From the IMG/VR virus record IMGVR_UViG_3300020420_000861, positions 1 through 33,967 of that record: a DNA stretch of 33,967 nucleotides; one strand, 5' to 3'. Position 1 is the first letter of the stretch. Each line of letters begins with the position of its first letter. Position numbers and translations under genes: made by a program. The stretch comes from a virus. The notes beneath the pieces were generated by a model. It saw only the letters and a list, made by a program, of their open reading frames with translations. It was not told the DNA's origin and ran no database searches. Below are positions 899-30,894 of the stretch, one piece after another.

Positions 899-1592
899 TT
901 TGTTTGGAGATGATATTGGTGCGGTTGAATACGTTTCACATATGGGTTCAGATTTGTCGGTTGTTAATGCGGCCAGAGTATCTTTCGGAACAGAAAAAGA
1001 TACAGTTGACGAGAAAGACGTCAAGTTAATTAACTACCTTATGAAGCACAATCACACTTCTCCTTTTGAGCACTGTGTTCTTACTTGTAAGTTCACAGTG
1101 CCTTTGTTTATAAGGAGTCAGCACCATAGGCACCGTACTTGGGCGTACAATGAAATCTCAAGACGGTATACTTCTATAGATATGAAGTTTTATGAACCAG
1201 AGCAATTTAGAACGCAACATAAAAGTAATAGGCAAGCAAGCAACAACGAGTTAGTTAATCCAATTCTTGACTACAATAGGTCAGGTTTTCCTATATCTTC
1301 AGATGCCTCTCAACTTGTTAGATCTCATCATGTGGAATCTTTAAAGTTATTTGAAAAATTGCTAGATGCCGGAGTTTGCAGAGAACAGGCGCGGGGTATT
1401 TTACCACAAAACCTTTACACTCAATATTTTGGTACCGCAAATTTACATAACATGCTGAAGTTCATTTCGCTTCGTGTGCACGAAGGGGCACAATGGGAGA
1501 TACAAGAAGTTGCTAAAGCGTGCTTGCAAATTGCCAAGGAGCACTTTCCACATTCCGTGGAGTCTTTTATAAAGCATAAAATGGAGCACTGA
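888..1592 (+). CDS. thyX: Flavin-dependent thymidylate synthase ThyX
   Basis: ThyX makes dTMP from dUMP using methylenetetrahydrofolate, FAD and NADPH. The signature RHR-X7-S is at residues 81-91 (RHRTWAYNEIS) followed by RRY, and the substrate-binding region around residue 167 reads CREQARGILP. At 234 residues it is of normal length. The start at 888 lies inside the end of the cochaperonin gene, implying translational coupling. With dUTPase at 9776 and the reductase upstream it forms a thymidine-supply route typical of large phages. Its stop (TGA) overlaps the ATG of the lipoprotein gene by one base. Confidence 0.95.
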   Translation: MRVSLFGDDIGAVEYVSHMGSDLSVVNAARVSFGTEKDTVDEKDVKLINYLMKHNHTSPFEHCVLTCKFTVPLFIRSQHHRHRTWAYNEISRRYTSIDMKFYEPEQFRTQHKSNRQASNNELVNPILDYNRSGFPISSDASQLVRSHHVESLKLFEKLLDAGVCREQARGILPQNLYTQYFGTANLHNMLKFISLRVHEGAQWEIQEVAKACLQIAKEHFPHSVESFIKHKMEH

Positions 1593-3799
1593 TGAAAAAA
1601 TATTTGTTTTTATTTCTTATCTTGGGTTGTGCAGATACCCACAATACTGAGGAGTCTGCAGGTTCAGAGGATGAACCGAGGTTAATTCTTGGAGGTTCAG
1701 ACCTTGGAAGGGATGTACCGATAATTGATTGGCAACCACCTGAACCACAAGAACCGGACATGTCCGCCGAAGAAATTTGCGAATTGGTCTCAGTCGCAGA
1801 CGTTGAAGAATATTGCCTTTGCAATCAACAATGTTGCGACAGACAAAGATGGTATTGTCCACCTAACCCAAGTCAATCAATTGATGTGATGCAGGTTATT
1901 GTTGAGATATGTGATGAAAACAAAGTGCCCTGTACATATGGTCGAGATGAAGATTGCCCACCGCCACAAATTTTACACAGGAGTGATTGCTACACACAGT
2001 GGGACTGCCCCCCAGGTACAAGTGGAGAATTCATAGAGTGGTTCGAGTGCCAACTTGAGGATGGTACTCTAGGAAGACAGCAAGTACTCTGCAATAAAGG
2101 CAATCTTGTACACTTGCCCTGCCGGCCATGTAATCCAGAGCAATGCGACGGCGAAGACAATGACTGTGACGGCGGCATAGATGAGGGTCGGTTTGAATGT
2201 GAGAATGAGTGTGGCACAGGTTGGGGATTTTGTATTGATCAGCAAGTTGTAGATTGTAATGCAAATCAACCATCGGAAGAGAGGTGCAATTTTGAAGATG
2301 ATGACTGTGATGGTAATGTTGATGAAGGGCAAAGGAATGCTTGCGATAGGTGTGGACCCCTTATGGCAGATATTTGTGATGGCGACGACAACGACTGCGA
2401 CGGACTCACCGACGAAGAATTAGTCAGGGAGTGTGAGACAGATTGTGGGAGAGGGGTTGAGACATGTGAGTCTGGAAACTGGATCTCGTGCACTGCAAGA
2501 CAACCAAGCGAAGAAGAGTGTGACGGCGAAGACAACGATTGCGATGGACAAATTGATGAACAACTACAATGCCTCTGTACTATAGAGGATGTTGGCAACC
2601 TTGTGCCTTGCACAGAACCACCGCTGATCTGTGGTCAAGGTTTTAAAACTTGTGAGTGTATCGATGCTGAGTGCACGCAGACAAGAATGACTGAATGCGC
2701 CGCACTCTGCCAGTATGTTGCTATGCCTGGTCCGCCATGTGATCCTACATCTGGCATCGCTTTACAAATGGAAGAATGCAATAACTTTGATGAAGATTGT
2801 GATGCGTCTATAGATGAAGAACTAACTCAAGGTTGCTACACAGGTCCACCAGATACTTTCCTTGTGGGGGTTTGTAGACCTGGTGAGGTTTATTGTAGTA
2901 ATGGTGTATGGGGGAGCGATAAGAACAATAACTTCGAACCTGGACACTGTTCGGGTGAAGTTACTCCACAAGAAGAAATTTGTGATGGCGCAGACAATGA
3001 CTGCGATGGTGTTGTTGATTACGGTGAAGAAATAAGAGAGACTGATATATTGTTTATATTAGATTGGTCAGGTTCAATGGATGATGAGATTGCTGCAGTA
3101 AAGATTGCACTAAACAGGTTTGCTACTCACTTTGCAGCAGAGGAACCACTACAGTGGGGACTAGTGGTGGGACCAAAAGAGTTTCAAGAAGATGGAGATG
3201 AGTACTTGGTGAAAGTTTCAGACATATTGCCTTTCGATCAATTTCTTGCGAGTTTTGCAGCACTAGGAGATGAGGGGATGGATACTGGAAATGAAATGAT
3301 TCTTGACGCTGTTTACTTATCAGTACAGAACATATCAGGCAATGCCCCTGTTGATATTGCTGCTACAAAATGGTTTGCCGACACTGGATCAAGACCTGCT
3401 AAAGAAAATTTTTCTATAAACTGGCGTCCTAACTCGGAAAGAATTGTCATAATTTTCAGTGATGAAGTTGAGCAATCTTATCTGCAGTGGGCAGATCATG
3501 ATATCCAAGGGAGACCGATAACAAAAACAGTTGTAGAAAATGCAGTAAGGGCAGGTTTAGGTTTAAAGGTCTATGCTTTTTCAGGCGGCGGTTTCGCCGG
3601 CCGACCAGATTTTTGGACAGACATTAGTTTGGCAGGTAATGGTGGAAATTTTGATTTGACATCAAATGCTGTAAATATGTATAACGACCTGATGTCTATA
3701 ATTGATGAAGCGTGTTTGCCAAGAGAAGAGGAGCAGGATGAGTTTGAAAGAATATCGATGACTGCAACTTATGATGACCTTTTAGGTTTATGTTACTAG
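1592..3799 (+). CDS. Large lipoprotein with MopE-type Cys/Asp repeats and a von Willebrand A domain
   Basis: 735 residues. The start gives a short signal sequence ending in a lipobox, ILGC, with the lipidated Cys at 13; the +2 residue is Ala, so by the Lol rule it would go to the outer membrane of a Gram-negative cell. Residues 60-480 are very Cys-rich and hold six copies of a motif of the type CDGEDNDCDGxxDE (starting near residues 185, 232, 262, 310, 396 and 464), the putative metal-binding motif first noted in MopE and common in secreted proteins of Myxococcota and relatives. Residues 485-705 look like a vWA domain with a MIDAS motif DWSGSMD (491-497) and a later FSDE strand (622-625). Such proteins bind divalent ions and mediate adhesion. 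A phage copy could coat the infected cell to alter adsorption, or be part of a virion. It may be acquired from a bacterium. Domain calls are confident; the role is unknown. Confidence 0.85.
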   Translation: MKKYLFLFLILGCADTHNTEESAGSEDEPRLILGGSDLGRDVPIIDWQPPEPQEPDMSAEEICELVSVADVEEYCLCNQQCCDRQRWYCPPNPSQSIDVMQVIVEICDENKVPCTYGRDEDCPPPQILHRSDCYTQWDCPPGTSGEFIEWFECQLEDGTLGRQQVLCNKGNLVHLPCRPCNPEQCDGEDNDCDGGIDEGRFECENECGTGWGFCIDQQVVDCNANQPSEERCNFEDDDCDGNVDEGQRNACDRCGPLMADICDGDDNDCDGLTDEELVRECETDCGRGVETCESGNWISCTARQPSEEECDGEDNDCDGQIDEQLQCLCTIEDVGNLVPCTEPPLICGQGFKTCECIDAECTQTRMTECAALCQYVAMPGPPCDPTSGIALQMEECNNFDEDCDASIDEELTQGCYTGPPDTFLVGVCRPGEVYCSNGVWGSDKNNNFEPGHCSGEVTPQEEICDGADNDCDGVVDYGEEIRETDILFILDWSGSMDDEIAAVKIALNRFATHFAAEEPLQWGLVVGPKEFQEDGDEYLVKVSDILPFDQFLASFAALGDEGMDTGNEMILDAVYLSVQNISGNAPVDIAATKWFADTGSRPAKENFSINWRPNSERIVIIFSDEVEQSYLQWADHDIQGRPITKTVVENAVRAGLGLKVYAFSGGGFAGRPDFWTDISLAGNGGNFDLTSNAVNMYNDLMSIIDEACLPREEEQDEFERISMTATYDDLLGLCY
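2144..3022 (+). repeat. Six degenerate MopE-like coding repeats
   Basis: Six copies of a 14-residue unit with the pattern C-[DN]-x-x-D-[ND]-D-C-D-x-x-x-D-E lie in the lipoprotein. At DNA level they are diverged (GAC/GAT, TGC/TGT choices differ), and spacing is irregular (30 to 86 residues), so they are old protein repeats rather than a recent tandem duplication. Confidence 0.85.
3656..3685 (+). promoter_or_regulatory. Possible internal sigma-70 promoter
   Basis: TTGACA (3656-3661), 18-base spacer, TATAAC (3680-3685), within the end of the lipoprotein gene and about 105 bases before the start at 3790. It could give the two following genes their own transcription. Being inside coding DNA, it could also be chance. 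Confidence 0.3.
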
Positions 3800-4563
3800 A
3801 GTTTAGTAACATTGTAGTGGGGTCTTGTGTAAGTGCGCTTTTAAAATCCTACGTTAATAATTACCCGATAATTCTAGTAGATCAAAACATGCCAACCCCT
3901 GATGTTGAACTAGGGCAACTTGTCAGGGTGCAAAGTTTGCAGAGTAAAAGTGCTTTTGAGATATGGTCAATACTTAAATTTATCTTATCTATGAGGGGTA
4001 AAATAGTTAATACAGTTAGTTTGCCAAGTGTTAGAATTGAAGGGGATATTTTAACATTTCGTGATTCTAAAATTAAGTTTAATAAGTGTCATTTGTTCCA
4101 CGCACCTGTTGTCAGTTCTGACCTAGATATAAGCAGAGTAGACAGGAGAGATATGTATAAGACAGTAGATTTTTTAAGGTTAAAATTTTGTGACGCTACT
4201 AACTTAGGCAGCATATTTCCAAAAGATACATTTATTGACACAATTAAATCTATAGCAAAAAAAGATTTGATTGCTGTATCTTTCTTGGAGAAAGAAAACT
4301 TGAATTCTTTCGACTATTCTGATACAATTGTTAGAATGATTACGGAAAAACTTCTTTTAGATAGTGACAGAATAGTAAGACCATCGGTTGGTCGGCACAG
4401 TAGTTCTTTGCGCAAACCAAAATTGGAAGTGATAAAAAGAGATGTGTTCCCACTTGAAGAAGTAGTTTTCAAGAGCACCAAGAGGATAAAATATTATGAT
4501 GGGAAAAAGCGAATCAACATCATCAAGACATATTGCAGGAATAATCCCAGTATCCAAAGTTGA
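3790..4563 (+). CDS. Unknown protein with Rossmann-like N-terminus
   Basis: 257 residues, overlapping the end of the lipoprotein gene by 10 bases. I do not recognise the family with certainty. The N-terminus FSNIVVGSCVSALL followed by PIILVDQN has the strand, glycine turn, helix, strand and acid pattern of an FAD- or NAD-binding Rossmann fold. The rest is basic, with no catalytic motif I can name, and ends in a Lys/Arg-rich tail. The last 68 bases also encode the start of the next gene in another frame. It may act with that neighbour, which looks like a nucleotidyltransferase, but this is inference. Confidence 0.7.
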   Translation: MLLEFSNIVVGSCVSALLKSYVNNYPIILVDQNMPTPDVELGQLVRVQSLQSKSAFEIWSILKFILSMRGKIVNTVSLPSVRIEGDILTFRDSKIKFNKCHLFHAPVVSSDLDISRVDRRDMYKTVDFLRLKFCDATNLGSIFPKDTFIDTIKSIAKKDLIAVSFLEKENLNSFDYSDTIVRMITEKLLLDSDRIVRPSVGRHSSSLRKPKLEVIKRDVFPLEEVVFKSTKRIKYYDGKKRINIIKTYCRNNPSIQS

Positions 4564-5317
4564 ATCAGATATAGACCTAGTGTTGCATCCTAGTGCACTG
4601 CCAATAGCGAATAACTTCTATGCAATACAAAGGAGTATAGTAGAGTGTTCGTATATAGGATGCAAGACAATATGGGTTGTTTGTGATGAATCTGTAGCAC
4701 CGCTCTTGAAAAAAATATGTGGAGACTTTGTACTTAATCTAGATCAGCATGAGAGATCAAAATTTGCTAGGTACCCAAAGGAGCATAGAACATATACACC
4801 AGTTTTTTATGTTCCTACGTCTTACAAAAATATGAATAAAAATGGAATAGCAGTGTCAGTGATGGAAGGTGTTTACGCTAGTTATTCGATTAGTGATAAG
4901 TTAAGTAAATGGGTAGTGCCCTACAGATACTATGTTTCTATGCCATATGGTGTCTATTACCCGAGGGACGTAAACTTAAGATCAAAAATTAAAAGTAACG
5001 AATCAGTTTTTTTATCCCATCTAGGACAGAACGCTAGAGACAACAAGCACATAGGTTTTAGTTTTAGTGGCAGGCAGTTTAAACACTGCTCTTATTTGTT
5101 TAAAAGAATGAACGTGAAAGAGGATTATACACTTGACAAAGTATTTGATGATGTTATAATGAGTGAAAATAGTGAAACACATAACGTAGATTACTATTAC
5201 GATATATCTTCTTGGTCGGGTTATCAAAAGATGATGAGCGACCCTCTTACTGTAGACAGTGATTGGAGATATTGTTTTAATAATGCTTTTAAGAAAGATG
5301 AAAGGAATATAGTTTGA
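4496..5317 (+). CDS. Nucleotidyltransferase-like protein (GT-A-like N-terminus)
   Basis: 273 residues. The ATG at 4496 is preceded by AGAGGAT; it lies 68 bases inside the previous gene, an unusually long overlap. The first 90 residues look like the start of an NTP-transferase/GT-A fold: AGIIPV, then PSALPIANNFYAIQRSI and the strand TIWVVCDE, as in sugar-nucleotide transferases where PxAxP and an activation-type helix follow the nucleotide loop. The classic GxGTR loop is not seen, so activity is uncertain. The C-terminal half is Tyr-rich and unassigned. The stop TGA shares three bases with the TTG start of the polymerase gene. Confidence 0.7.
   Translation: MMGKSESTSSRHIAGIIPVSKVESDIDLVLHPSALPIANNFYAIQRSIVECSYIGCKTIWVVCDESVAPLLKKICGDFVLNLDQHERSKFARYPKEHRTYTPVFYVPTSYKNMNKNGIAVSVMEGVYASYSISDKLSKWVVPYRYYVSMPYGVYYPRDVNLRSKIKSNESVFLSHLGQNARDNKHIGFSFSGRQFKHCSYLFKRMNVKEDYTLDKVFDDVIMSENSETHNVDYYYDISSWSGYQKMMSDPLTVDSDWRYCFNNAFKKDERNIV
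5133..5160 (+). promoter_or_regulatory. Consensus sigma-70 promoter inside the upstream gene
   Basis: Perfect hexamers TTGACA (5133-5138) and TATAAT (5155-5160) with a 16-base spacer, 154 bases before the DNA polymerase start. It would let the polymerase and downstream nucleotide genes be transcribed separately from the lipoprotein genes. Confidence 0.5.
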
Positions 5318-8300
5318 GACAAGAATCAACAATACCCTTCGTGGGATTACATGCACATTCTGTGGCGGGTTCAATATTTGATGCGTTGGGGTACCCTCAG
5401 CAGCATATGGATTATGCATTTGAAAATGGCATGGATGCGCTTGCACTTACAGATCATGGTAATGCTAATGGTTTAGCATATCAAGTCTTGCATGCAAAAA
5501 AGATGAAGAGCGAGGGAAAAGATTTTAAACCAATCTTTGGTTGTGAAGCATATTTTGTGCCAAGTATTGCAAACTGGAAAGTTGATTACGAGAAGGCGAA
5601 AGAAGATTCTAAAAACGCAAAGGCGCTAGAGGACGTGCAATCAGGTGCAACTGTAGAAAATGAGGCGTCCAAAAAGAAGATGAAGTCTATTCTAAATAGG
5701 CGCAGTCACATGATACTATTAGCGATGAATCAGACAGGTCTTCAAAATATTTATAAGATGATATCAAAGTCTTATACTGGAGACCACTTCTATAGGTATC
5801 CAAGAATTGATTACGCCCTTTTGAAAAAGCATAACGAGGGAGTCATCGCCGCATCTGCCTGTTTAGGTGGTGTGTATGCTGGCAATTATTGGCAGAACAG
5901 AGATGAAGGCGAAGACGCTGTCCTCGATGCCATGCGGGAAACAACGCAGAAGATGCAATCCATATTTGGTGATCGATGGTATGGAGAACTGCAATGGAAT
6001 AACGTACCGGAGCAACATACTCTAAATCAGTTTATCATCCAGATGCACTATGAGTTTGGAATTGAACTTATATCGACAGCAGATTCACATTACTATTCTC
6101 CCGATGCCTGGAAAGATAGAGAACTTTACAAGAGATTAGGTTTCCTTGGCAGGAAAGTTGAATGGTTATCTGATGAGTTGCCAGTTGACGTTGATGATAT
6201 AGGGTATGAACTTTACCCCAAGAATGGCGATCAGATGTGGGAAAGTTATAAGAAATACTCTAAAGAATGCGGCGTAGAATATGATGATAATATTGTTTTG
6301 AATTCTATAAAGCGGACTTATGATATTGCGCACAATCGAATTGATGCATTTTTGCCAGATAATAAAGTTAGATTACCAGATTTTGTTGTACCTGACGGTA
6401 GCACAGCAGGGGAAACTCTTATTGCTTTGTCCGTAGCGGGAGCGAGAGACAAGGGTTTTGCTGATAATTCAATCTACATTGAACGATTAAAGCATGAGGT
6501 TAGGGTGATAGAAGAAAGGGGGTTCAGCAAGTACTTCCTTACTATGAAAAAGATTGCTGATGAGGCAACAAAGATGCAATTAGCAGGCGCAGGAAGAGGT
6601 TCTGCGGCGGGTTCTCTTGTTGCTTATGCCTTGGGTATTACCCAAATAGATCCTATCCGTTATGGACTGCAATTTGAAAGATTTTTAACCAAAGGTGGAT
6701 CAGGATATCCTGATATTGATTATGATGTGTCAGACCCTATGGTGCTCAAGGAACACCTCATAAGTGAATGGGGTGATGATGTTGTTGTTCCAATTACAAA
6801 TTGGAATACTTTACAACTAAGATCTCTAATAAAAGATATTTCAAAGTTTTATGGCATTGAGTTTTCTGAGGTCAATGCCGTAACCAATAAGATGGTTTTT
6901 GAGGCAACGCCACTAGCAAAGAAAGCGCACGGTATTACTGCAGGTGTTTACAATCCGACATTTGACGAACTTATGATGTACTCAGAATCTTTGCAAAAGT
7001 TTCTTGATAAGTATCCAGATGTAAAGACACACGTAAATGCACTTTATGGACAGACAAGGTCAGCGTCACGGCATGCTGGTGGCGTTGTGGTAGGCGAGAA
7101 TTTAAATCAATGGATGCCACTTATAAATTCAGGAGGAGTTAGGCAAACACCTTGGTCCGAAGGACAGAATGTCAGGCATCTTGAACCTATGGGTTTTATT
7201 AAATTTGATATTTTGGGACTTGCATCTTTACGAATGATAGAAGATGCGATTAGACATGTGCTCGTTAGATATGAGGGGGTTGAAGATCCGAACTTTGAAG
7301 ACATCAGGAACTTTTACGAAGATAAATTACATCCTGAAAAGATAGATTTAAATGACAGGGAGGTGTGGGAAAATGTATTTCATCAAGGAAAGTGGGCAGG
7401 TATATTCCAGTTTACAGAAGGTGGAGCACAATCTTTTTGTAAAAATGCTAAACCAAACAATATCACAGACCTTGCTGCCATTACTTCTATATATCGTCCT
7501 GGTCCATTATCTGCTGGGGTTGACAAAATGTATATCGGTGCAAAGGAAGAACCAGAAGAAGTAGACTATGTAAATGATTACGTCAGGGAAGTTACTGAAG
7601 AGACATACGGTTTCTTAATCTTCCAAGAACAGATTGCAATGCTTGCCCACAAGTTGGGTAAAGACTTGACACTAGATGAGGGTAACAAACTTAGAAAACT
7701 GCTCACGAAAAAAGGAACAGGATCTGCTGATGTAGAGAAGGATAAAATCTATGACAAGTTTCGTAGAGGTTGCATCGAAAAGGGGATGAAAGAATATGAA
7801 GCAAAACAGTTGTGGGAAAAGTTTGAGTATTTTTCAGGGTATGGTTTTAATAAGTCTCATGCTGTATCCTACTGTGTACTATCTTTTCAGTGTGCTTATT
7901 TACTTAATTATTATCCAGAATGCTGGTTGGCAGCATTTCTAGATAAAGAACCAGATAAGAGAAAAGAAAGAGCAATAAACATAGCAAAGTCTTATGGTTA
8001 CAATATTGAACCGTTGAACGTTAACACTTCAGGTGTCAGGTGGGAAATAAGTAAAGATGGCAAGACATTGATACAACCTCTATCTTCAATTAAGGGTCTT
8101 GGCATGACGGCGATTGAACAGATTATAGCGAACAGACCGTTCAACAAGATAGAAGACTTTTTATTTAATGAAAACATAGTTTACTCTAAACTTAACAAGA
8201 AGGCAGTCTCGGCGTTATGTTTAAGTCAAGCACTGAACTGCTTAATGGATGACAGATTTACAGGACTTAATCATTTCTGGTCTGCGGTTGCAGTAGAGAG

Positions 8301-8736
8301 ACCTCGTAAAGAAAAGAATCTTTTAGAGAATATTGAAAAGTTTCAGAATGAAGGCGACATGACGGAAGAGGAAAAACTACAGCACCTGGTTAACCTTACA
8401 GGTATTTTTCCAATCAGTTCTGTTGTCAATGAAAGTTTACAAAATTGGTTTGAAGAAAGAATGATTCCGCCAATATCTGAGTTCGATGCAGAACTCCAGG
8501 TTTGTTGGTTTATACCAAGACAAGTCTTGCAAAAGAAAACAAAAAATGGTAAACTGTTCTATGTAGTCAAGGTGATTGATGCTAATTCTGAAGAGAACAC
8601 TATAAAGTGTTGGGGAGTAGATCCAGAAAAAGACAGCATCTACATCAATAGACCTTACATGGCGAGGTTGGAATGGAATGCCCAGTGGGGATTCAGCACA
8701 AGATCCGTCAGAAGAAATTTTAAAATGTTAGCGTAG
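5314..8736 (+). CDS. dnaE: DNA polymerase III alpha subunit (DnaE type)
   Basis: 1140 residues, close to the usual length of DnaE. The TTG start at 5314 follows GAAAGGA and overlaps the previous stop. Domains in order: a PHP domain (residues 1-270) retaining metal ligands H13, H15, D47-H48 and D257/H259; the polymerase palm with GRGSAAGSLVAYALG (428-441) and catalytic Asp pair PDID (D467, D469); the fingers with YRPGPLSAGV and GYGFNKSHAVSY; a helix-hairpin-helix IKGLGMTAIEQII; and a C-terminal OB-like region. There is no proofreading exonuclease insertion, so it is DnaE- not PolC-like. A bacterial-type C-family polymerase as the phage replicase is less common than family A or B; no beta clamp is seen here, so it may borrow the host clamp or use one outside the window. 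Confidence 0.95.
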   Translation: MRQESTIPFVGLHAHSVAGSIFDALGYPQQHMDYAFENGMDALALTDHGNANGLAYQVLHAKKMKSEGKDFKPIFGCEAYFVPSIANWKVDYEKAKEDSKNAKALEDVQSGATVENEASKKKMKSILNRRSHMILLAMNQTGLQNIYKMISKSYTGDHFYRYPRIDYALLKKHNEGVIAASACLGGVYAGNYWQNRDEGEDAVLDAMRETTQKMQSIFGDRWYGELQWNNVPEQHTLNQFIIQMHYEFGIELISTADSHYYSPDAWKDRELYKRLGFLGRKVEWLSDELPVDVDDIGYELYPKNGDQMWESYKKYSKECGVEYDDNIVLNSIKRTYDIAHNRIDAFLPDNKVRLPDFVVPDGSTAGETLIALSVAGARDKGFADNSIYIERLKHEVRVIEERGFSKYFLTMKKIADEATKMQLAGAGRGSAAGSLVAYALGITQIDPIRYGLQFERFLTKGGSGYPDIDYDVSDPMVLKEHLISEWGDDVVVPITNWNTLQLRSLIKDISKFYGIEFSEVNAVTNKMVFEATPLAKKAHGITAGVYNPTFDELMMYSESLQKFLDKYPDVKTHVNALYGQTRSASRHAGGVVVGENLNQWMPLINSGGVRQTPWSEGQNVRHLEPMGFIKFDILGLASLRMIEDAIRHVLVRYEGVEDPNFEDIRNFYEDKLHPEKIDLNDREVWENVFHQGKWAGIFQFTEGGAQSFCKNAKPNNITDLAAITSIYRPGPLSAGVDKMYIGAKEEPEEVDYVNDYVREVTEETYGFLIFQEQIAMLAHKLGKDLTLDEGNKLRKLLTKKGTGSADVEKDKIYDKFRRGCIEKGMKEYEAKQLWEKFEYFSGYGFNKSHAVSYCVLSFQCAYLLNYYPECWLAAFLDKEPDKRKERAINIAKSYGYNIEPLNVNTSGVRWEISKDGKTLIQPLSSIKGLGMTAIEQIIANRPFNKIEDFLFNENIVYSKLNKKAVSALCLSQALNCLMDDRFTGLNHFWSAVAVERPRKEKNLLENIEKFQNEGDMTEEEKLQHLVNLTGIFPISSVVNESLQNWFEERMIPPISEFDAELQVCWFIPRQVLQKKTKNGKLFYVVKVIDANSEENTIKCWGVDPEKDSIYINRPYMARLEWNAQWGFSTRSVRRNFKMLA

Positions 8737-26434: not shown

Positions 26435-26511
<77 letters not shown>

Positions 26512-30186: not shown

Positions 30187-30652
30187 CGTAATCGAGGTAC
30201 CAAGACAAGAATTTTCAGGATTTGCCGTTTGTCCGTTTTCAAAATCTGAAAGGGTTAAGGGTAGACTGATGGTTGACGTGCTAGATCACTCTAGTGAATC
30301 ATTCTTAGATTGTATGAATAGAATGACTGAGAAGGGTTGCACTTCAGCAGTCTTGGCACTTTTTGATGGTGGTGTGCCTGTTGTGATGGACAAATCGGAA
30401 ACGGTTGGGTTTTCAAAGTTTCTGAATAGGATTATGAGAGACAATGGGATATTGGGTTATAAAAATATATGCACTAATCCCAGTGATGAGGTAGATGCAG
30501 ATGGATACAATCCAAGATCCCAGTCTCCATACTTCCTTATTGTAATATCAGAGACAGATGACCTTGATAAAAAAAGAAAGTCCTTGACAAAAACAAAATA
30601 CTACGATAAGATGTCTGACAAATATAAAAGATTTCTTAGTTTGGACCTGTAG
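30137..30652 (+). CDS. Unknown protein whose stop lies in tRNA-Met
   Basis: 171 residues from ATG at 30137 (GAGGG upstream, spacing loose; a TTG four codons earlier is too close). Alpha/beta protein with FAVCPFSKSERVKG and SAVLALFDGGVPVVM; CPF..K recalls a Cys motif of some thiol proteins but no family is assigned. Its last codons and stop overlap the first 10 bases of the following tRNA. Confidence 0.7.
   Translation: MVEKRQIIKNITDYLVNVIEVPRQEFSGFAVCPFSKSERVKGRLMVDVLDHSSESFLDCMNRMTEKGCTSAVLALFDGGVPVVMDKSETVGFSKFLNRIMRDNGILGYKNICTNPSDEVDADGYNPRSQSPYFLIVISETDDLDKKRKSLTKTKYYDKMSDKYKRFLSLDL
30584..30612 (+). promoter_or_regulatory. Promoter for the tRNA cluster
   Basis: TTGACA (30584-30589), 17-base spacer, TAAGAT (30607-30612), 30 bases before the first tRNA, within the end of the preceding gene. 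Confidence 0.5.
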
Positions 30653-30718
30653 TTCAGTGGTTAGAACACCCGGCTCATAACCGGTTGGTCCTCGGTTCAA
30701 ATCCGAGCGGGTCCACCA
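30643..30718 (+). tRNA. tRNA with CAT anticodon (Met or lysidine-modified Ile2; 30676-30678)
   Basis: 76 bases with encoded CCA. Acceptor GGACCTG / CGGGTCC, loop CTCATAA, T-arm CTCGG-TTCAAAT-CCGAG. G1-C72 pairing and lack of three GC pairs below the anticodon loop exclude the initiator. The D-loop and the C4-G69 pair resemble E. coli tRNA-Ile2, so it might read AUA after lysidine modification; elongator Met is the alternative. Confidence 0.95.
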
Positions 30719-30719
30719 A

Positions 30720-30792
30720 GGGTCGCTGGCGCAATTGGCAGCGCATCGGACTTTTAATCCGTTGGTTCTGGGTTCGAGTCCCAGGCGACCCA
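30720..30792 (+). tRNA. tRNA-Lys (anticodon TTT, 30753-30755)
   Basis: 73 bases, one base after the previous tRNA. Acceptor GGGTCGC / GCGACCC is perfectly paired, loop CTTTTAA, T-arm CTGGG-TTCGAGT-CCCAG. CCA is not encoded (ACAA follows). It reads AAA, the dominant Lys codon here. Confidence 0.95.
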
Positions 30793-30798
30793 CAATCT

Positions 30799-30872
30799 CC
30801 TCCTCGGCCGGATGGTGTTCGGGAGGCGTCTTATAAGCGTCTTGAAGCAGAGTTCAATTCTCTGGGGGAGGA
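30799..30872 (+). tRNA. Candidate degenerate tRNA-Ile (anticodon TAT, 30832-30834)
   Basis: Cloverleaf: acceptor CCTCCTC / GGGGAGG (one wobble), anticodon stem GGCGT / GCGTC with loop CTTATAA, T-arm CAGAG-TTCAATT-CTCTG fitting TTCRANY exactly, discriminator A. D-arm is weak and the usual U8 is a G; CTA stands in place of CCA. Anticodon UAU would read AUA. Ile identity elements C4-G69, C29-G41 and A73 fit. Could be a decaying or unusual tRNA. Confidence 0.55.
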
Positions 30873-30894
30873 CTACAATTTATTGGAGGTTAGT

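Follow-up and report, generated by a model that had tools for sequence, protein, structure and literature searches.

A predicted lipoprotein joining MopE-type repeats to a vWA domain, encoded in the replication operon of uncultivated phages

The 33,967-nucleotide stretch of viral DNA analysed here (IMG/VR record IMGVR_UViG_3300020420_000861, hereafter the window) raises the question of what a phage gains from a 735-residue protein that combines a lipobox, MopE-type repeats and a von Willebrand factor A (vWA) domain, and that is encoded among genes for nucleotide metabolism and replication. An initial annotation had judged this gene unexpected in such a block, and had proposed that its product may remodel the surface of the infected cell. 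As shown below, the gene is a genuine phage gene; it is no oddity of a single phage, being fixed in an uncultivated lineage and found in other large phages.

The gene, its operon and the architecture of its product

The open reading frame at 1592–3799 (+) is open from an ATG and lies, as first proposed, within a replication and nucleotide operon, with thyX upstream and DNA polymerase III alpha downstream. The ATG shares 1 nt with the stop codon of thyX, and the gene order thyX – lipoprotein – p3 – p4 – polymerase is common to the window and its closer relatives. Pfam gave no match in p3 or p4. The features are as follows.

888–1592, +: thyX, the upstream neighbour (Pfam Thy1, E 1.7e-47)
1583–1586, +: ribosome-binding site GGAG of the lipoprotein gene (sequence)
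1592–3799, +: MopE–vWA lipoprotein gene, 735 aa (ORF, Pfam, alignment, model)
1592–1630, +: signal peptide and lipobox ILGC, predicted lipidation at Cys13 (Cys invariant in 23 aligned proteins)
1631–1762, +: disordered acidic linker, residues 14–57, Asp at +3 conserved (pLDDT <50)
1763–2137, +: Cys-rich N-terminal domain, residues 58–182, group I only (alignment; 10 invariant Cys in group I)
2144–2185, +: MopE-type repeat 1, from residue 185 (Pfam, motif scan)
2285–2326, +: MopE-type repeat 2, degenerate, from residue 232 (motif scan)
2375–2416, +: MopE-type repeat 3, from residue 262 (motif scan)
2519–2560, +: MopE-type repeat 4, from residue 310 (motif scan)
2777–2818, +: MopE-type repeat 5, degenerate, from residue 396 (motif scan)
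2981–3022, +: MopE-type repeat 6, from residue 464 (Pfam, motif scan)
3032–3718, +: vWA domain, with DWSGS at 3062–3076 and SDE at 3458–3466 (alignment, Pfam in relatives, model, Foldseek)
3790–4563, +: p3, overlapping the lipoprotein gene by 10 nt (locus comparison)
4496–5317, +: p4, adjoining p3 and the polymerase gene in relatives (locus comparison)
5314–8736, +: DNA polymerase III alpha, the bait for relatives (Pfam and PHROG matches)

The 10-nt overlap with p3 is reproduced exactly in 74 of 99 loci, and dN/dS is ~0.05–0.14 for pairs with estimable dS, indicating purifying selection; the lipoprotein gene is therefore an established member of the operon. An assembly chimera, which would have undone the original claim, was rejected because dozens of independent contigs show the same junctions and the same gene order. 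Recent capture from a host was likewise rejected, as the gene has long been part of the clade and its GC3 (0.338) is similar to that of the adjoining phage genes. Elsewhere in the window, a perfect TTGACA-16-TATAAT promoter-like site with an extended −10 (5133–5160) lies shortly upstream of the polymerase gene. The genes between 9396 and 30000 include those for a HAD-like protein, dUTPase, IMPDH, a ClpP-like protease, GroEL, HSP20, UvdE, a D12 methyltransferase and a T4-type RNA ligase, and tRNAs are found at 26435 and 30643–30873.

The N-terminus, MKKYLFLFLILGC, carries a short signal peptide and the lipobox-like ILGC, with the Cys at residue 13. A lipobox was recognised by rule in 69 of 86 distinct full-length proteins, which form the protein set used throughout, and is visible in most of the others; export and lipidation are thus predicted from sequence, and at that level the assignment as a lipoprotein stands. 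The protein would be expected in the outer membrane, where it could face the periplasm instead of the cell surface. Counted from the lipidation Cys, position +3 (1634–1636) is Asp in 58 of 69 proteins, while the rest of the linker is unconserved. This residue is possibly a sorting signal, and there is a partial resemblance to the lipoprotein export signal of Bacteroidetes (PMC5080379). The corresponding fraction was 0.06 among 35 Myxococcota-type bacterial lipoprotein candidates, and the Bacteroidota sample consisted of one candidate, too few to point to a host.

Beyond the linker and the Cys-rich domain, all six repeats of the original description are present, but the consensus C-D-x-x-D-N-D-C-D-G is literal in only four of them, those at residues 232 (CNFEDDDCDG) and 396 (CNNFDEDCDA) being degenerate. 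None of 10,000 shuffled sequences of the same composition reached five strict repeat matches, the highest count being 2. Pfam PF11617 matched the window protein at E 7.5e-12 (45.7 bits versus a cut-off of 27) and 23 of 23 relatives, and between 3 and 7 repeats occur per protein among the 86 homologues. The initial annotation had noted that MopE-like repeats are known from secreted bacterial metal-binding proteins. In MopE itself the copper site consists of His132, His203 and kynurenine 130, an oxidised Trp (PMC3423442), whereas no His column is conserved at ≥80% in the lipoprotein alignment; a search of the PDB gave no match to MopE. With the MopE copper ligands absent, copper binding was rejected, and the name MopE is no sign of copper or metal uptake. 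Binding of calcium by the repeats appears likelier than copper, because DxDxDGxxDE is similar to a calcium loop and MopE is protected from proteolysis by calcium (PMC3423442). Disulfides are also predicted in the protein.

For the C-terminal domain, Pfam made no vWA call on the window protein alone, and PF00092 was matched by 11 of 23 relatives. The structural model of the domain is confident (pLDDT 90.9, pTM 0.90), and its Foldseek matches are integrin headpieces, integrin I domains and von Willebrand factor A domains, the best being an integrin headpiece (E 2.2e-7), with target TM up to 0.68 for single A domains. The claim that MopE repeats and a vWA domain are joined in one protein is thus borne out by Pfam and by the model. 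As for the metal ion-dependent adhesion site (MIDAS), previously described as intact, the core survives scrutiny: D491, S493, S495 and D624-E625 are invariant in the alignment, and DxSGS(M/V) with the later Asp-Glu is kept in 86 of 86 proteins. The Thr position is not conserved, however, reading TGNE in the window and Gly-Gly in several relatives, with Glu568 invariant instead. The domain may bind a ligand via its metal site.

Distribution in relatives and exchange of alleles at a fixed site

Relatives were collected by way of the neighbouring DNA polymerase, which yielded 539 viral contigs, and the best 80 of these were inspected. Of the relatives whose polymerase is ≥72% identical and whose contig spans the site, all 34 carry a homologue there; some near-identical contigs are included in this count. 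In 37 relatives among the same 80, with polymerase identity ≤69%, the slot lacked the lipoprotein; one record at this distance (L079, 190 kb) carries a copy ~30 kb or more from the slot. At least 181 viral loci matched the vWA profile; among the best 80 of these, 61 shared one or more neighbouring genes with the main locus, whereas the other 19 lay in different contexts, in records that reach 280 kb. A second subgroup, represented by 27 loci, lacks the N-terminal Cys-rich domain. In a single 145-kb phage record, two MopE–vWA lipoproteins, one of each subgroup, stand in tandem (L172:4525–9151).

No meaningful match to the lipoprotein was found among cultured phages or in PHROG, no PADLOC family matched it, and a literature search found no phage MopE or vWA lipoprotein. 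No cultured phage has a polymerase that reaches 60% identity to the one in the window (~30% among the best matches listed), and the lineage is therefore uncultivated; from the sources of the contigs, we take it to be marine.

The position upstream of p3 is a slot for accessory genes. Of 143 loci, 32 have a gene for a secreted SLT transglycosylase immediately upstream of the lipoprotein gene, and it is adjacent whenever present (Pfam E 4e-17 for that of L005; examples at L005:6005–6481, L007:5659–6141, L020:5402–5884 and others), while five outgroup loci (among them L047, L055 and L073) hold the SLT without the lipoprotein. In other contexts, secreted HExxH proteins and further small lipoproteins adjoin the lipoprotein gene. 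One such family, secreted or lipoprotein-like and weakly SprT-like, adjoins it in other giant phages:

L236:6183–6791, L226:6942–7547, L225:6969–7505 and L172:9107–9706 (−): HELVH/HELTH–DPDHEG proteins

A small Cys-containing lipoprotein of 95–98 aa is encoded immediately upstream at L207:4401–4697 and L234:4411–4698. These envelope-active neighbours suggest an envelope role; in the window itself, neither an SLT nor any other envelope gene stands beside the lipoprotein gene. A separate observation concerns L171:8407–9396, where the polymerase ORF starts ~770 bp later than that of L164 with a similar p4 end, possibly through a frameshift, an insertion or an intein.

The history of the lipoprotein gene departs from that of its surroundings. 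Its tree rejects the polymerase clade of the window (11 phages; lnL difference 1851, AU p 8.7e-79), thyX rejects this clade weakly (lnL difference 59, p 0.002), p4 keeps it with support 100, and the reverse constraint, which groups the window with the phages nearest to it in lipoprotein sequence, is rejected by the polymerase data (p 2e-52); these were quick trees under one model, with recombination inside the gene, so that the p values are not to be taken literally, but the conflict itself is plain. The pair L004 and L202 gives a direct example. Their polymerases are 99.8% and their p4 proteins 100% identical and p3 is nearly so, whereas the lipoproteins are 92.9% identical (dS 0.33, versus 0.04 for the polymerase) and thyX differs too, which is a recent replacement. 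In L038:5953–8190, the N-terminus of the second subgroup is joined to the remainder of the first, and recombination therefore occurs within the gene too. Taken together, lipoprotein alleles have been exchanged between phages by recombination at a fixed site.

Bacterial kin and known phage systems

The search of bacterial and phage proteomes for the same architecture, advised at the outset, found it conserved in uncultured phages and found bacterial proteins with the opposite order. In a scan of genome collections, MopE-type repeats occurred, among the matches listed, mostly in Myxococcota and 'Deltaproteobacteria' metagenome-assembled genomes (MAGs), and the full lipoprotein profile aligned in five such genomes through its repeat part only, again among the matches listed. 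The vWA profile (E ≤1e-5) matched in 55 of 379 Myxococcota genomes, compared with 2 of 395 genomes from the phylum to which a Saprospiraceae MAG belongs. The bacterial relatives inspected are exported proteins with the same vWA subtype motifs. Several Myxococcota vWA proteins (L276, L280, L283), some with a lipobox, share the DNSGSM, GxxExxLxA and SDE motifs and matched the phage profile at E down to 2e-8, but they are without MopE repeats and their vWA domains align in part. Secreted Myxococcota proteins such as L284 and L098 unite both domain types in one exported chain, as the phage protein does; they differ in being bacterial, in placing vWA first and in having no close full-length match to it. 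Among the best 80 bacterial loci, 11 proteins held vWA with MopE repeats; in 10 of them vWA came first or preceded the repeats, and in none of the 11 were the repeats followed by a C-terminal vWA domain as in the phages. The combination is thus not foreign to bacteria, although there it was met in the opposite order. Since the bacterial proteins that join the two put vWA first, the phage architecture is a rearrangement of components that are common in Myxococcota-type bacteria. As to Myxococcota being the hosts, the phage G+C of ~39% gives no support. With the vWA profile, no related phage contig turned up in 284 and 379 genomes from the phyla to which two MopE-bearing MAGs belong, nor in 395 genomes from that of the Saprospiraceae MAG.

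Among characterised systems, MopE of Methylococcus capsulatus (PF11617) shares the Asp-rich Cys repeat motif, while the phage protein lacks the copper-site His and has an added vWA domain and lipobox. Jumbo-phage MoxR–vWA pairs and TerF vWA proteins (PMC7824862) also place a vWA domain in large phages, but their descriptions mention neither a signal peptide nor a lipobox nor MopE repeats; beside the window gene there is no MoxR ATPase, and its product has a signal peptide, unlike a MoxR–vWA co-chaperone. Llp of T5 and Cor of T1 and phi80 are, like the protein studied here, phage-encoded lipoproteins made in the infected cell. Both are small and without vWA domain or repeats, in contrast to a protein of 735 aa encoded between thyX and p3, and the T5 Llp gene adjoins the receptor-binding gene, as the window gene does not. 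The lipoprotein is accordingly not assigned to the Llp/Cor family, from which it differs in size, domains and gene position.

A proposed role at the envelope of the infected cell

We tentatively favour an envelope-anchored binding protein on the infected cell, most plausibly one that acts in superinfection exclusion. The lipoprotein would be produced alongside the replication proteins in the course of infection, exported from the cytoplasm by its signal peptide and lipidated at Cys13. On the flexible acidic linker, the MopE-type repeats would form a disulfide-rich rod, which calcium probably stabilises and which would hold the integrin-like vWA domain off the membrane. This domain, whose fold is predicted, may bind a ligand at its metal site, and the displayed protein could thereby bind or mask a surface component and alter phage adsorption; exchange of alleles is as expected of a specificity factor at a contested surface. 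Exclusion is ranked first because this is a phage lipoprotein encoded with replication genes, because its alleles are exchanged, and because small phage lipoproteins such as T5 Llp are known exclusion factors that block receptors (PMC9586334). Lipobox (in nearly all), rod repeats and vWA core are conserved across the 86 proteins, consistent with such a role, and allele exchange together with the envelope-active neighbours in relatives favours a surface or envelope function. Against exclusion stand the small size of the known exclusion lipoproteins, the position of T5 Llp beside a receptor-binding gene and the lack of an adjacent envelope gene in the window. Allele exchange alone could, moreover, reflect recombination hot spots, with thyX weakly affected too. 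A more ambitious version, that these proteins form an undescribed family of lipid-anchored, integrin-like phage factors whose exchanged alleles decide which phages or cells attach to the infected bacterium, is possible but doubtful.

Adhesion or aggregation is the nearest rival to superinfection exclusion, though an unlikely one: the vWA head would stick infected cells to other cells or particles and so bring progeny into contact with more hosts, or would mimic a host surface protein. A MIDAS-bearing vWA domain on rod-like repeats is an adhesin architecture, the fold matches the pilus adhesin SpaC as well as integrin headpieces, and this vWA subtype is common in Myxococcota; there is, however, no direct tie to adhesion, and the bacterial relatives are themselves uncharacterised. 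Somewhat less probable again is that an outer-membrane lipoprotein helps a transglycosylase or protease to open the envelope late in infection. The always-adjacent SLT and the secreted HExxH–DPDHEG proteins speak for this, but most loci, including the window, have no SLT beside the gene, the five outgroup loci have the SLT alone, and the gene sits in a replication operon. Nor was a T4-type late promoter, TATAAATA, seen upstream among 32 starts, and in size, composition and neighbours the protein is unlike a small proline-rich outer-membrane spanin.

A periplasmic or envelope metal-dependent factor, handling calcium or copper or serving as a folding cofactor for secreted phage proteins, is suggested by the Pfam name of the repeat (Cu-binding_MopE), and the missing copper ligands and the PDB result described above make it very improbable. 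The least likely reading is a virion component acting in adsorption through the lipoprotein or its vWA domain, for although the vWA-like folds from a viral structure search include a virion structural protein, and the alleles are exchanged, as is frequent in receptor-binding genes, this gene lies among replication genes with no structural gene adjacent at the main locus, and its signal peptide and lipobox are conserved.

Because neither PHROG families nor cultured phages match it, the lipoprotein is invisible to current annotation, and its carriers are widespread, large, uncultured phages. That an exported lipoprotein of some 700 residues is fixed in a replication operon suggests that these phages devote considerable resources to altering the infected cell's envelope. 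Should the protein serve in exclusion or adhesion, the vWA head would represent a binding module of a kind new among phage-encoded ones, and the exchange of its alleles would allow competition between phages to be read from metagenomes.
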